Positions 2,404-42,893 of a stretch of DNA of 64,000 nucleotides are shown here, piece by piece; the first letter of the stretch is position 1; every line of letters starts with the position of its first letter. A program made the position numbers and the translations under genes. Source of the stretch: Pseudomonadota bacterium. GTDB taxonomy: Bacteria > Desulfobacterota > Syntrophorhabdia > Syntrophorhabdales > Syntrophorhabdaceae. The notes under the pieces were generated by a model that saw nothing but the letters and a program-made list of their open reading frames with translations, was not told where the DNA came from and did no database searches. The stretch covers positions 1 to 64,000 of the forward strand of contig JAPLKB010000015.1 in the NCBI GenBank assembly GCA_026388275.1. Direction: 5' to 3'.

Positions 2404-2439
2404 AAACATCATTTTAAACAGAAACGCTATATTTTCAGT

Positions 2440-2634
2440 CTTAGTCCAATTCTAAATCAAGGATGCAATGACTTACCCCGCTTCAGCTTGCGGGGCAATC
2501 AAGGCGGCAAGGGAACACCCGCAAGCGGGTACCCGGACGTAGGCGTACTATAATAGTACGTCGGAGGAACACCCACAAGTGGGTACCCGGACGAAGCCAA
2601 CGATGATAGCGCCTTGATTTAGAATTGGAATTAG
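2440..2634. repeat. Palindrome-rich mobile-like repeat element, copy 1 (195 bp, terminal inverted repeats)
   Basis: The element is bounded by 23-base inverted repeats (2440-2462 and 2612-2634), identical over the inner 18 bases (2445-2462, 2612-2629). Inside are a taccccgc...gcgggg hairpin (2474-2495), two 27-base modules at 2513-2539 and 2567-2593, and a gtactataatagtac palindrome (2545-2559). The two modules differ by a paired change in their hairpin stem (acccgc/gcgggt versus acccac/gtgggt), so base pairing is kept. A second copy in inverted orientation lies at 42751-42893 and has only one module. No gene is encoded; it resembles a MITE or REP/BIME element. Confidence 0.85.
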
Positions 2635-2637
2635 TCT

Positions 2638-8096: not shown

Positions 8097-8175
8097 TGGT
8101 CGGGATGACTGGATTTGAACCAGCGGCCTCTTGCTCCCGAAGCAAGCGCTCTACACCGAACTGAGCTACATCCCG
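8097..8175 (-). tRNA. tRNA-Pro (anticodon CGG), CCA encoded
   Basis: The minus strand folds as a complete cloverleaf: acceptor stem cgggatg/catcccg (8169-8175 with 8101-8107), D arm gctc...gagc, anticodon arm cttgc-ttcggga-gcaag with anticodon CGG, variable loop aggcc, and T arm gctgg-ttcaaat-ccagt. The discriminator is A and a CCA end is encoded at 8097-8099. The leading C1-G72 pair is typical of proline tRNAs. Confidence 0.95.
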
Positions 8176-9900: not shown

Positions 9901-9919
9901 CTCTCTATCTTCTTAGAAA

Positions 9920-9966
9920 AACAGAAAAGGGATGACTTATGCAAGATAAGTCATCCCTTTTCTGTT
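9920..9966 (+). terminator. Long perfect-stem terminator after the ferredoxin gene
   Basis: Perfect 20-base stem (9920-9939 pairs with 9947-9966) with a 7-base loop (tgcaaga). The stem is A/T-rich at its base, so it can act in both directions. It sits 19 bases after the ferredoxin stop. Confidence 0.85.
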
Positions 9967-10091
9967 TATTGGGGCTTGCGTCGCCCCCTCCACCGGCCAA
10001 GCCGTCGGAGCCACCCCTTCTCGCCCGCTGTGCGGGCTATTTAATATATTGACATATTGACGTTATATGCAGCACCTCCTCCTCTATAAGC
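9967..10091. other. GC-rich intergenic patch with short hairpins
   Basis: Between two terminators lies a gene-free patch. Its GC-rich part (about 9968-10040) contains hairpins ggggcttgcgtcgcccc and cccgctgtgcggg and differs sharply in composition from the AT-rich surroundings. It may be a degraded repeat. No gene or known RNA is recognised. Confidence 0.4.
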
Positions 10092-13359: not shown

Positions 13360-14682
13360 GTGAAATACCGCTTAATAATATTAGTTTTTTCGCTTCTTAT
13401 ACATTTGTCCGGTTACTACATTCTTTTATACAGAATTGAGCCCTTCCAATATTTTTCTTACATAATATTATGGTGGTCTTACATAATATTCATGGATGTT
13501 TCTTATTCATTTAAAAAAAATAAGTATCTTGTTTTGAACAAAGGCCTTCCTTTTTTAATTATTATTTCCTGTGGTTTCTGGTGTATCTTCGAAGTTATCA
13601 ATGTCAGAATTCAAAATTGGTTCTATATAAATCTCCCATCGGAGATATATCAACGGTATACAGGTTATCTTCTTGCATATGGGACCGTCATTCCCTCGAT
13701 ATATGTAACGAAAGAACTAATTTTCAGCCTTATCGGTAAAATGAACTACCACGCGGCAAGCCTTGGGTTATCAAAGGCAAAGCAAGAGCATGAAATGAAT
13801 AACCCCGAAACAGGTTGCGGAGCAAATCATTTCGAAGCAAGCCCTGGGGTATTTGTCCGCAGGGCACTAAAGACAAAACCCATCTGCATAAGGAGCTACC
13901 CGGTTTATTCAATCCTGCTCGGTTTAATAACAATTTTGTTAACATGCCTGTACCCTATTTATTGTTTTCCTCTTGTATGGGTGTTTCTTGCGCTTACACT
14001 CGACGGTTATAACTATTTAAAAGGTTATGCTTCATTTATGAAGGATTTTAAAAGGGGACTTATAAGTAATACTATTGCCACAATACTCTCAGGACTTTTA
14101 TGCGGCATTTTGTGGGAAACATGGAATTTCTGGTCTGTCTCAAAATGGGTTTATACAGTACCTTTTTTTGAAGATCTGAAGCTCTTTGAAATGCCTGTTC
14201 CCGGTTATATCGGATTTTTAGTTTTTAGTTTTGAAGTTGTCGCATTCTTAAATTTTTTGGAGGGGATAAAATTGCGACAACGAAACAATATCCTGATTGC
14301 GCTATCCTGTCTTATATTTTCAGTTTTTTCATTTGTTATGATAGACAAACATACGGTCTTCTCTTACGCAACAAAAGTTGAAAAGCTCACCTTTATCGAA
14401 AAAGAAAAGCTCACCTATTTTATTGCAAAAGGAGTTAAAACAAGCTACGGGATTGACCAAAGCCTTCTCGATAAGAGCGAGAGGGACAGCATAAATCTTC
14501 TTCACCTGAAAGGCATGGGAATGGCAAATTTTTTAAGACTGCAGCAACATGGAATAAACAACATAAATGCCCTTTCAATGCTCGACGACAGGGCACTTTC
14601 CAATATACTCCATGAAGGAAACCTCAGGAGAATGCGGGTGTATATTAAGGCGGCAAAAAAAGCAGCAGGCGGCAGGAATTAG
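13360..14682 (+). CDS. Polytopic membrane protein of unknown function with inserted repeat segment and C-terminal helical domain
   Basis: I do not recognise this 440-residue protein. A GTG start 3 bases after the NlpC/P60 stop gives the first helix (MKYRLIILVFSLLIH). About four membrane helices precede residue 128 and about five follow (173-325). The loop from 128 to about 174 is polar, starts MNYHAASLG, and is encoded by a palindromic repeat segment (13741-13855) foreign in character to its surroundings. The C-terminal 80 residues (LLHLKGMGMANFLRLQQHGI...) look like a helix-hairpin-helix/DUF4332-like fold. No function is assigned. Confidence 0.75.
   Translation: MKYRLIILVFSLLIHLSGYYILLYRIEPFQYFSYIILWWSYIIFMDVSYSFKKNKYLVLNKGLPFLIIISCGFWCIFEVINVRIQNWFYINLPSEIYQRYTGYLLAYGTVIPSIYVTKELIFSLIGKMNYHAASLGLSKAKQEHEMNNPETGCGANHFEASPGVFVRRALKTKPICIRSYPVYSILLGLITILLTCLYPIYCFPLVWVFLALTLDGYNYLKGYASFMKDFKRGLISNTIATILSGLLCGILWETWNFWSVSKWVYTVPFFEDLKLFEMPVPGYIGFLVFSFEVVAFLNFLEGIKLRQRNNILIALSCLIFSVFSFVMIDKHTVFSYATKVEKLTFIEKEKLTYFIAKGVKTSYGIDQSLLDKSERDSINLLHLKGMGMANFLRLQQHGINNINALSMLDDRALSNILHEGNLRRMRVYIKAAKKAAGGRN
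13741..13855 (+). repeat. In-frame palindromic repeat inside the membrane protein gene
   Basis: Bases 13741-13773 (atgaactaccacgcggcaag, then ccttgggttatca) nearly match 17500-17532 in another gene. A second, related hairpin follows at about 13798-13855, with taaccccga and ctggggta arms and a gaagcaagcc core. Both keep the reading frame. The cores resemble the taccccgc/gcggggta hairpin of the intergenic elements at 2440 and 42751. I interpret the segment as a decayed repeat inserted into a cytoplasmic or periplasmic loop. Confidence 0.7.
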
Positions 14683-15982: not shown

Positions 15983-16429
15983 ATGGAAAAAATAAGCATT
16001 GTTAAAAGGCGAAAAGCCGATGACAGCAACACAGAAAAGAATGCTGCAAATTCTTTTCGGAAAGTTATTGAACAAAAACCGGTTGAGAATAATGCCGGTA
16101 CGGTAAATGCTTATGAGTTACACGATTATCCTTTGAAAAACAAAAGTGATTCACAGGACATCAACATTTCTGGAAACAATCCGTACGAAATTGAAATTAA
16201 GAAAATGGAGTCTGAAGACGGAAAGATTGTATTGAACCTGAACTTTGCATCTATGCAACCACAGAGAATGCTTACCTCTGCAGATGTTTGCATGATGCTA
16301 AAGATCAGCAAATATTTACTACAAAGACTAGTAAAAGAAAAAGAAATAGGATGCTATAAGGTTGGCAAATTAAAACGTTTTTTGCTTGACGATATACTAA
16401 CCTACATACAAAGGAGTAAAGTGCTATGA
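15983..16429 (+). CDS. Excisionase/HTH_17-like DNA-binding protein
   Basis: The 148-residue protein has a disordered, polar N-terminal half and a C-terminal HTH of the excisionase/MerR-like class (about 97-145): LTSADVCMMLKISKYLLQRLVKEKEIGCYKVGK, followed by FLLDDILTYI. Such domains bind DNA and often partner with ATPases or recombinases. The start has aaggggaagg upstream. The stop overlaps the next start (ATGA), so it is translationally coupled to the ExeA-like ATPase. The target is unknown. Confidence 0.8.
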   Translation: MEKISIVKRRKADDSNTEKNAANSFRKVIEQKPVENNAGTVNAYELHDYPLKNKSDSQDINISGNNPYEIEIKKMESEDGKIVLNLNFASMQPQRMLTSADVCMMLKISKYLLQRLVKEKEIGCYKVGKLKRFLLDDILTYIQRSKVL

Positions 16430-17895
16430 ATAACTCAGCCACCACCATAAATTCAGACAATACGTTGCCGGGGGCTGACTCGTCAGTCCAAAAAGTGCCC
16501 GAATATTGTCGGTACTGGGGTCTACATAAACCTGCCTTCGACAATGTTCCGGATCCTTCTATGTATGTTGATGCACATGAATCTGTGGAAAATGCCATTG
16601 CGGAAACAGTATTTGCTATAGATGAGGGAAATGAATGCATTGCTGTCATTGTTGGGGATATTGGTCTGGGGAAGACTCTGTCGCTTCGCATGATTCTTGA
16701 TTCTCTCAATCAGGAGAAATATCGTATTGCCTTTATTACCAACCCGGATATGTCCTTTGTCCAGTTGCTGAAAGAAATTATCGGTCAACTGACGGGTGCG
16801 CAATGTGAGATAAGGGGAAGAGTCGAATTGCTGGAAATATTCAACAGGATTCTCTTTAAAACACATGACGAGCATAAAAAAGTGCTTATTTTTATTGATG
16901 AAGCAAATGCTCTTACCCCGACAAACCTCGAAAGCCTGAGGCTCCTTACAAACATGCAGGACGATACAAAGAACCTATTTACCATTGTTCTTGCCGGACA
17001 AATGGAGCTAGCAAAGAGATTGGAACATCCCAGACGTGCAAACCTTTATCAAAGAATCGGGACTTACAATAGAATAGAAAAAATTCCTAATATAGAACTC
17101 CTCCGCCATTATGTAGAGGCACGTCTTAAACTGGCAGGTGCATCGCGTGCTATTTTTTCTGAAAATGCATTTGAAATGCTCTGGGAATATTCTGAGCATG
17201 GTGTTCCGCGTTTAATTAACAAAATCTGCAAGCTTTCATTGAAGGCCGGAGAAACTAATGGACTAACAGAAATTACCGATAAAATTGTTGAGCAGATAGG
17301 GCAACGTTTTCAAAAGCTAACCGGCCCAATTCTACAGAAGAGAAAACCGCGAAAAAGGTCTTCTCAAACAGAGGAAAAATACCAGGATGATATTACAGAT
17401 ACCCCAACGGAAATTGTCTCTTTTTCACCTGAAGAAACAAAGATCTTTGAAGACCTCCCAACTGAAAATGATTATGATATTGAAGAAGAAATAGAAGAAA
17501 TGAACTACCCCGCGGCAAGCCAAGGGGTAACAGAGGCAGCAGATAGATCGGAAGAAGCAGGTGCAATAAAAGAGACATCAGACGATATGCTTTCCGATAA
17601 CCAGAAAGCGGGGGGAATCTTACCAACAGAAGAAGATGCCGGTAAGTTCTCTGATCTGACTGAAGAAATATGTATAAAAGATATTCGCTTTAAGGCTTTT
17701 ATCCCACACAATTTATTTGAAGAAGCTCAGATTAAAACACAAGCAGAACGAGACAAAATGGCAGGCGTTCTGGCAGCCAAAACCATGGAAGACCACAAAG
17801 ACCACTTTTCAACAAGCACTGTTGATCCTGTTTTTCTATGGTGTGAACTCAAAGACTATTTTTTGCAGAGGCTTATCCATGCAAAGGAGGCGTAG
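16426..17895 (+). CDS. ExeA/TniB-like AAA ATPase with an in-frame repeat insertion
   Basis: The 489 residues begin with the ExeA-family opening (YWGLHKPAFDNVPDPSMYV) and carry Walker A GDIGLGKT (77-84), Walker B VLIFIDEAN (153-161), and sensor-like LAGQMELAKRLEHPR. The AAA domain ends near 295. The rest is acidic and low-complexity, and holds a palindromic repeat from residue 359 (MNYPAASQG), then a conserved-looking tail. Relatives act in secretion (ExeA), exosortase loci and Tn7-like transposition (TniB). With the HTH protein it makes a DNA-binding/ATPase pair of unknown role. Confidence 0.85.
   Translation: MNNSATTINSDNTLPGADSSVQKVPEYCRYWGLHKPAFDNVPDPSMYVDAHESVENAIAETVFAIDEGNECIAVIVGDIGLGKTLSLRMILDSLNQEKYRIAFITNPDMSFVQLLKEIIGQLTGAQCEIRGRVELLEIFNRILFKTHDEHKKVLIFIDEANALTPTNLESLRLLTNMQDDTKNLFTIVLAGQMELAKRLEHPRRANLYQRIGTYNRIEKIPNIELLRHYVEARLKLAGASRAIFSENAFEMLWEYSEHGVPRLINKICKLSLKAGETNGLTEITDKIVEQIGQRFQKLTGPILQKRKPRKRSSQTEEKYQDDITDTPTEIVSFSPEETKIFEDLPTENDYDIEEEIEEMNYPAASQGVTEAADRSEEAGAIKETSDDMLSDNQKAGGILPTEEDAGKFSDLTEEICIKDIRFKAFIPHNLFEEAQIKTQAERDKMAGVLAAKTMEDHKDHFSTSTVDPVFLWCELKDYFLQRLIHAKEA
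17500..17532 (+). repeat. In-frame palindromic repeat inside the ATPase gene
   Basis: The segment starts atgaactaccccgcggcaag and closes with ccaaggggtaaca. Its arms taccccgcgg and ggggta form an imperfect palindrome, and it is nearly identical to 13741-13773. It encodes MNYPAASQGVT in an acidic linker and leaves the frame open. Confidence 0.75.
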
Positions 17896-20631: not shown

Positions 20632-21339
20632 TTAACCGCGGCGCCCCATACGTTTCCTGAGTAAAGCAATGCCTGCAAGACCAGGTCCAAATAAGAGAAT
20701 TGCACCCGGGATCGGGACAGATGTGGTAGCGACTTGCCAAATGGTAAATGGATCATTATTCGGGTCAGTAATCGTAAAATAAAAATTTGCCGTGTCTCCT
20801 GGACTTACATGGGCTGGCCAGTCTGTTGAGGAGAAGAACATAAGTTCTCTGTTGTTGTTGTAAGGATAAGGATAGCCTAAATCCCTAAAACCACCGTCTA
20901 CGAACGGGTTGCTGTGGGTATTCCCAGTACTATCATTATAGGTTGCTCCTTCCGTCATAAGAAGGAAATGGTAATCGGACCAAGTGTACGGTGTTGTATT
21001 TGTTACCACAAATTGCAGATTTAAGCCTCCCCCCGTGACATTACTAATCTCTTTTTCAAAAAACCCGCCTTGAGGATTAACAATGGCATATCCATCATGG
21101 GATGGGTAAGGGATAATTCTGACCTCATTGTAATCTTCATGAACCGTCAAGATGTATTTTCCCGTGTTAATATCGTACCAGTACTGTTGAGACACTATAG
21201 AGTTCAGGTCTGAGGTGTTCAAATCCGTAATTGTAGGTGGAGGTTGAGTACGCACCGCTTCTGCTGGAGTCACGCCCCACACACACGTCAGTGAAAATAA
21301 ACAAACTAACGCGATAAAGAAATATTTTGATCTTTTCAT
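20632..21339 (-). CDS. Secreted protein with PEP-CTERM/VPLPA-type sorting signal
   Basis: The 235-residue protein has a signal peptide (about 1-29) and a beta-rich body without a recognised domain. It ends with a sorting signal: VPIPGAILLFGPGLAGIALL followed by RKRMGRR. That is the motif-hydrophobic helix-basic cluster layout of PEP-CTERM/VPLPA-CTERM proteins cleaved by exosortases. It is therefore likely exported and processed at the cell surface. The 5' region carries a GEMM/c-di-GMP-I-like riboswitch, which fits control of a surface or biofilm component. No exosortase is in the window. Confidence 0.85.
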   Translation of the reverse strand: MKRSKYFFIALVCLFSLTCVWGVTPAEAVRTQPPPTITDLNTSDLNSIVSQQYWYDINTGKYILTVHEDYNEVRIIPYPSHDGYAIVNPQGGFFEKEISNVTGGGLNLQFVVTNTTPYTWSDYHFLLMTEGATYNDSTGNTHSNPFVDGGFRDLGYPYPYNNNRELMFFSSTDWPAHVSPGDTANFYFTITDPNNDPFTIWQVATTSVPIPGAILLFGPGLAGIALLRKRMGRRG

Positions 21340-21374: not shown

Positions 21375-21475
21375 AATCCGGCAACCGAGGCTGTCTGACT
21401 TACGCATATCAAAGCTGTAAATTGTCTAAGACCCTCAAGGTTTTCCGTCCCGCCATTTCTGACGGTTTGGTTTTA
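21375..21475 (-). promoter_or_regulatory. GEMM / cyclic-di-GMP-I-like riboswitch
   Basis: Read on the minus strand, the leader has AAACC, a 6-bp stem ccgtca/tggcgg capped by a GAAA tetraloop, then GGGACGGAAAACC, a second variable arm, and agcctcGGTTGCCG. Class I c-di-GMP riboswitches have AAACC-stem-GAAA-stem-GGGACGCAAAGCC ... GGGTTxCCG (established). The match covers order, spacing and tetraloop. The outer P1 stem is weak and a few conserved positions differ (ACGG for ACGC), so ligand specificity is open. It lies 36 bases upstream of the PEP-CTERM-like gene. Confidence 0.65.
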
Positions 21476-21546
21476 TCAGGTTGAATATTCAATCTATCTA
21501 TTTATTCTGTTTAACTTAATATAACAATCAAACAGTTTTTTCTATA

Positions 21547-42750: not shown

Positions 42751-42893
42751 GTTTATTCCATTTATAAATCACGGCGTTATCATCGTTGGCTTCGTCCGGG
42801 TACCCGCTTGCGGGTGTTCCCTTGCCGCCTTGATTGCCCCGCAAGTTGCAGCGGGGTAAGTCATTTCATCCTTTGGTTAAGAAATGGAATTAG
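42751..42893. repeat. Palindrome-rich mobile-like repeat element, copy 2 (143 bp, inverted relative to copy 1)
   Basis: Read on the minus strand it matches the element at 2440-2634: taccccgc-tgcaac-ttgcgggg hairpin, aatcaaggcggcaaggga, acacccgcaagcgggtaccc, and aagccaacgatgataacgcc. It has one 27-base module where copy 1 has two, which explains the length difference. The ends (gtttattccatttataaatc on the left and aaatggaattag on the right) are degenerate versions of the same inverted repeats. It sits between the convergent response-regulator and nuoN genes. Confidence 0.85.

Follow-up and report, generated by a model that had tools for sequence, protein, structure and literature searches.

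The window, that is, the whole stretch of 64,000 nucleotides analysed here, comprises positions 1-64000 of contig C15 in a genome of 3.53 Mb and 71 contigs. It carries a gene for a membrane protein, whose product had no match in Pfam or NCBIfam, and a gene for an AAA ATPase, and each of them contains a copy of the same short repeat (Table 1). The original prediction placed near-identical palindromes at 13741 and 17500, and this held. A 20-mer matched at these sites with 1 and 0 mismatches (0 expected in 100 shuffles), and 13739-13779 is 85% identical to 17498-17538. The core common to both is ATGAACTACC(C/A)CGCGGCAAG, and both copies are read in the same frame, ATG AAC TAC CCC GCG GCA AGC (MNYPAAS), in real plus-strand ORFs. 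The palindrome itself is present, but its proposed size of 33 bases is not that of the real units, which are 126 and 66 nt long. Likewise, a second related hairpin does exist in the membrane-protein gene, but it is not a separate insertion, being hairpins 2 and 3 of copy 1. A covariance model of the element (CM R1) matched copy 1 at E 6e-30 and copy 2 weakly (17497-17570, E 0.04).

Table 1. Features of the window, forms of the target, and copies read in frame in genes of this and related genomes
Feature	Position	Strand	Description
Host gene 1, membrane protein of 440 aa	13360-14682	+	orthologues across the whole family
Element copy 1	13741-13866	+	126 nt, 42 codons, MNYHAASLGLSKAKQEHEMNNPETGCGANHFEASPGVFVRRA; in frame, with AAA before it and CTA after it
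Hairpin 1 of copy 1	13747-13770	+	TACCACGCGG-CAAG-CCTTGGGTTA; from sequence and consensus fold
Hairpin 2 of copy 1	13802-13822	+	degenerate; module missing from the 96-nt form; from alignment A1
Hairpin 3 / distal end of copy 1	13831-13866	+	TTCGAAGCAAGC..GGGGTATTTGTCCGCAGGGCA; from alignment A1 and end consensus
Target remnant CTAAA, host sequence	13867-13871	+	consensus ATMAA, complement TTKAT; from boundary statistics and empty sites
Host gene 2, AAA ATPase	16426-17895	+	AAA_22; like pepcterm_ATPase TIGR03015, score under its cut-off
Element copy 2	17500-17565	+	66 nt, 22 codons, MNYPAASQGVTEAADRSEEAGA; internally shortened; GAA and ATAAA on its sides
Intergenic repeat, family A	2437-2637	+	26-nt terminal inverted repeats; carries a 30-nt copy
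30-nt minimal copy	2468-2497	+	ATGACTTACCCCGC..GCGGGGCA, then ATCAA
Second family A element, shared part	42755-42873	-	intergenic
30-nt minimal copy	42835-42864	-	GATGAA and ATCAA on its sides
Target of the element, sequence forms			TTGATTTC/TTTATTTC
In-frame copies, own genome			membrane protein, 126 nt; ATPase, 66; AsmA-like, 30; PilN-domain protein, 30
In-frame copies, G007			methyltransferase, 126 nt; GT2, 96; NodT efflux lipoprotein, 30
In-frame copies, G010			DEAD helicase, 125 nt; ResB, 96; V-ATPase C, 96; zf-HC2 anti-sigma-like, 95; small protein at C17, 30
tRNA gene (Rfam)	8100-8175	-	
Inverted repeat	9919-9967		perfect, 22 nt, 5-nt loop
c-di-GMP-I riboswitch	21377-21481	-	closely upstream of ORF 20632-21339
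ORF	20632-21339		C-terminus VPIPGAILLFGPGLAGIALLRKRMGRRG, resembles a PEP-CTERM sorting signal

Fourteen copies of the element align at 89% mean column identity. Among 71 two-ended copies the flanks carry near 0 bits and the ends, GAAATGAAC and GGGGCAATMAA, mostly 1-1.9 bits. The boundaries are sharp, GAA|ATGAAC on the left and GGGGCA|ATMAA on the right, and there is no target duplication. Pairs of empty and filled sites, together with the end statistics, show that the insert runs from ATGAAC to GGGGCA and is placed between GAA and ATMAA. The target is GAA^ATMAA, or TTKAT^TTC on the other strand, and the flanks of copy 2 correspond exactly to its consensus. From a first alignment the insertion in the membrane-protein gene seemed to have a TAAA target duplication, which was ruled out by the end statistics and by further empty sites. 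The long forms come with three hairpins at about 126 nt or with two at about 96 nt, and the 30-nt form has a single one. With lengths of 30-129 nt the element is too short for a transposase gene. It also lacks the terminal inverted repeats of a MITE, the left end being ATGAACTACC and the right end, on the other strand, TGCCCCGCGG. A structured RNA family was rejected as a candidate, as Rfam finds in the window just the tRNA and the c-di-GMP-I riboswitch.

The hairpins of the intergenic repeats at 2440 and 42751 had been thought akin to the palindromes in the two genes. Each of these repeats does carry a 30-nt copy with the same boundaries, but the repeats themselves belong to a different, larger family with terminal inverted repeats (ATTCTAAATCAAGG...) and about 10 genomic copies, here called family A. 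On the simplest reading, the element inserted into an ancestor of family A and was then amplified along with that repeat. The suggestion that one repeat family occupies both coding and non-coding sites was borne out by the copies found in both.

Relatives retain the sites without the element. A search with the membrane protein gave a match in 39 of 60 relatives, in a few of them solely via the inserted peptide. In G001, a member of the same genus with 82% identity, query positions 3-129 and 170-440 are adjacent in the DNA, and the other relatives that match both sides of the site have no room for the 42 residues. The segment is thus missing in relatives, as expected of the insertion that had been proposed, and this empty site was read at the DNA level with G001 and G009. 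Three further sites gave clean or near-clean pairs: the methyltransferase gene filled in G007 (GCTGAA^ATCACAG versus GCTAAAATCACAG in G016), the V-ATPase C gene filled in G010 (CTCGAA^ATCTAT versus CTTGAGATCTAT in G001), and the GT2 gene filled in G007 (GATGAA^ATCAGG versus GAAGAAATACGA in G022). The AsmA-like gene of the own genome likewise has a clean or near-clean empty site at the DNA level in G001. The DEAD helicase site (G010 versus G016) is less clean than the others, and ResB is contiguous at the protein level in several genomes. In the ATPase, copy 2 sits in a hypervariable linker, and therefore the empty state there is deduced from the boundaries of the element rather than from a clean orthologue alignment. 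A conserved host peptide was rejected as an explanation of the segments, because the orthologues do not have them.

Further copies were also expected elsewhere in the genome, and many were found, coding and non-coding. Genome-wide, there are six occurrences of the 17-mer core (≤1 mismatch allowed) and 26 of the hairpin pattern (≤3 mismatches allowed), while the reversed-pattern control had 0 matches. Besides the two in the window there are about 20 full-length copies, mostly intergenic, and in addition 30-nt single-hairpin copies. CM R1 matched 68 places in the own genome at E≤0.1, related subfamilies being counted in, and had matches in 18 of the 60 relatives. Of 297 genomes sampled evenly across the phylum, 15 gave a match at E≤1e-8, and the family of the window had the strongest matches as well as the largest number of them. 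The search with the membrane protein also hit the inserted peptide at about 10 unrelated sites in G009 and at further ones in G007, G010, and G016, and thus the element was recognised as a dispersed repeat. The full-length copies of G009 are 96% identical to one another and thus recent, while those of the own genome average 73% and are old. A further repeat of about 140 nt in the own genome (L013, L018, L022, L024, L028; AATGAACCTCCCCGCAGCAAGCTGCGGGGTATCACTGG...CCCTGCAGCAAGCTGCAGGGAATCATTTGGATT) has similar end hairpins and is apparently another IS200-like short element. G010 and G019, which are listed as different genera, share contigs that have the same length and show no difference over the stretches that were compared (L466/L467, L468/L469). 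These are probably cross-binned metagenome contigs, and therefore the copy counts of G019 are unsafe.

All 12 in-frame cases have the same sense phase, and their host genes are unrelated. In the DEAD helicase (125 nt) and the anti-sigma-like protein (95 nt) the copies lie in tail or linker regions, and a neighbouring 1-nt indel is needed for the frame. A copy in another frame lies at the C-terminus of an HTH protein of G010. Of the six frames of the 126-nt consensus, only sense phase 0 is open, and therefore any other phase would truncate the protein. This frame is open in 41 of the 71 copies, above every other frame. In G009 a 95-nt copy in this phase has truncated the gene for a cysteine synthase (L227, G009:C29:1499-1601). 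Given the single open frame and this truncated gene, survival after random insertion is sufficient for the frame rule. A joined-flank analysis of the 71 long copies placed few of them in genes, which suggests that coding DNA is strongly depleted in long copies if coding density is that of ordinary bacteria. The GT2 insertion, which adjoins the DDGSTD motif, is common to two species (G007 and G016), between which the gene shows dN 0.039 and dS 0.163 over 287 codons. Thus, the insert-carrying protein is kept under purifying selection. Copy 1 differs from the consensus at 25 of 126 bases, and these differences are spread evenly over the codon positions (9, 8, and 8), so the element peptide in it looks unconstrained. 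The gene that flanks copy 1 has no stop; in a neutral simulation at 10-20% divergence the probability of 0 stops was 0.006 to 0.0005, a rough estimate since the consensus may differ from the true progenitor.

An exact scan for AATGAACTACCCCGCNGCAAG in 84,980 genomes gave at least 117 stretches in many phyla, and several of these sit directly after an opposite-strand ORF that encodes an IS200/IS605 TnpA. The proteins match Y1_Tnp at E 7e-39 and NF033573 at 125-135 bits (cut-off 55), whereas with the RAYT model (REP_Tyr_transpos) they score 25-31 bits, under the cut-off of 80. In tnpA copies of many phyla the gene is preceded by ..ATTCCCCGC hairpins and followed by GATACCCCGC..GCGGGGTAGTTCATT. 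Read on the tnpA strand, these hairpins lie at the near end, and the far end is GATACCCCG..CGGGGTAGTTCATT. The end hairpins of the element are common to IS200/IS605 tnpA copies, as in a PATE. The first impression from the wide scan, that one element occurs across phyla, was dropped; what is shared is the end hairpin, which belongs in some cases to copies with a tnpA and in others to different short elements. At the tnpA-start side, the spacer that separates terminus and hairpin is unlike the one in typical IS copies. ISDra2 inserts 3' of TTGAT (PMC2806898), and the TTKAT target of the element is this sequence or one base off.

At the level of the order and the phylum, G019, G041, G009, and G053 carry tnpA copies whose ends are related. 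G001 has an internally deleted tnpA that keeps both end hairpins (L387, G001:C32, around 16399), and this is a step between the full transposon and the short element. No Y1 or RAYT transposase was detected in the own genome, and thus the family looks fossil there; no tnpA with ends identical to those of the element was found in the family. For these two reasons the mobiliser is one that we infer. G009 was considered as a source of an active mobiliser and rejected, as its best tnpA carries a different hairpin.

The element is very probably a non-autonomous derivative of the IS200/IS605 type (PATE), and its in-frame copies in genes are very probably tolerated survivors. TnpA, a Y1 HUH transposase, would act in trans, cutting a single strand at the hairpins and joining it 3' of TTKAT, so that an insertion would add exactly the length of the element. 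Where this length is a multiple of three (30, 66, 96, or 126 nt) and GAA lies on a codon boundary, the insert would be read as (E)MNYPAAS... and the host protein would gain 10-42 residues. Copies of other frames or lengths would break the gene and be lost, and the in-frame coding copies would be the survivors. The extra peptide appears to be tolerated by the hosts and has no evident use.

Rickettsia palindromic elements (RPEs), reportedly described by Ogata et al. in 2000 and 2002, were the comparison drawn in the original prediction. The likeness in behaviour stands, as the element lies in the same frame in unrelated genes and does so in sister genomes as well, and RPEs too are palindromic, 100-150 nt long, and in frame in unrelated genes with one preferred frame (PMC10969869; PMC3733652). 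Because its ends and target site are of the IS200/IS605 type, we regard the element as a non-autonomous transposon family that works like RPEs rather than as a demonstrated RPE. It is very improbable that it is a true RPE or a member of the CGTC-REPs, whether by descent or by transfer, since its host is not Rickettsia and RPE/CGTC repeats have a CGTC end and no associated transposase, whereas the element has GAAATGAAC/GGGGCAATMAA ends in common with IS200/IS605 tnpA copies. The CGTC end is missing from its end consensus; the comparison with RPEs was by description.

The insertions might instead be adaptive, with the element under past selection for a peptide that is benign or useful and with coding insertion as a life-history strategy in place of passive survival. 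The excess of open phase-0 frames and the natural reading of GAA^ATMAA as Glu-Ile in that phase fit this idea. However, the majority of copies are intergenic, the open frame may stem from composition, the differences in copy 1 are even over codon positions, and survival alone explains the frame rule, so we consider it distinctly improbable. If the segments were removed before or after translation, in the manner of an intron, IStron, or intein, the host protein would be unchanged. There is a precedent in the IStrons, which reportedly join IS605-type elements with self-splicing introns (PMC4227781). But 30-126 nt is far below the size of a group I intron or an intein, and Rfam finds no ribozyme in the window. 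Moreover, splicing would make stops and lengths modulo 3 irrelevant, yet the copies that lie in frame are open, and the cysteine synthase gene is frameshifted by its 95-nt copy. Removal is thus hardly credible. Finally, there is next to no chance that the similarity is coincidental or that the host proteins conserve the peptide as a part of their own, and nothing was found in favour of this: the orthologues are without the segments, the DNA repeat also occurs in non-coding DNA, the controls gave zero, and the empty sites refute it.

Rickettsia is the best-known home of protein-coding palindromes, whose mode of movement there is unexplained, and the same behaviour is now seen in an unrelated bacterial lineage. 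Here the transposon relationship, the target, the empty sites, and a failed insertion are all visible, and therefore the mechanism is open to in vitro testing. The element provides natural cases in which peptides of 10-42 residues were dropped into conserved enzymes. It also cautions annotators and structure predictors against taking such segments as part of the fold, since they are transposon insertions. A wider proposal would be that IS200/IS605-type transposition, with its fixed target and lack of duplication, is a general bacterial route to in-frame insertions, that the family was shaped to be translatable (open phase 0, 3n lengths, Glu-Ile boundary), and that this route also explains the Rickettsia elements, which have no known mobiliser; we consider this unlikely. 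A literature search that covered few subscription papers found no earlier report of a multi-hairpin element of the IS200/IS605 type in frame in many genes, and none in Syntrophus.

Among known systems, RPEs resemble the element in being found in frame in unrelated protein genes, in one frame, and also outside genes (PMC10969869). They differ in host phylum and in their ends (RPE-4/6 belong to the CGTC group), and they have no known transposase, while the IS200/IS605 relationship and the target are visible here. Intragenic GTAG and CGTC REPs have been described in several bacteria (PMC3733652). Like the element, GTAG-tagged REPs are hairpin repeats tied to Y1 tyrosine transposases (RAYT), and some are intragenic and add 20-30 residues (PMC3733652). 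GTAG-REPs have GTAG at the 5' foot of the hairpin and outside its stem. In the element the tag polarity is opposite, as CTAC stands 5' of the hairpin and its TAC is paired within the stem; a unit of 96-126 nt contains two or three hairpins, and the associated proteins are IS200/IS605 TnpA rather than RAYT. ISDra2 of Deinococcus radiodurans shares the subterminal hairpins and the insertion 3' of TTGAT, but it is autonomous, with tnpA and tnpB, and small in-frame copies are not described in the available part of that paper (PMC2806898). There is also a parallel with the PATEs of Haloquadratum walsbyi, for which the available part of PMC3119063 describes strain-specific insertions and the disruption of all IS200-type transposase genes. 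The element differs from them in sequence and domain of life, and residence in frame in many genes is not described in that part. Like PATEs, it has no TIRs, no target duplication, a size without room for a transposase, and IS605-like near-terminal palindromes. Both also have terminal-only forms that arise through core deletion (52 bp in Haloquadratum and 30-51 nt here), and both reside in genomes from which an intact transposase is absent (PMC3119063).
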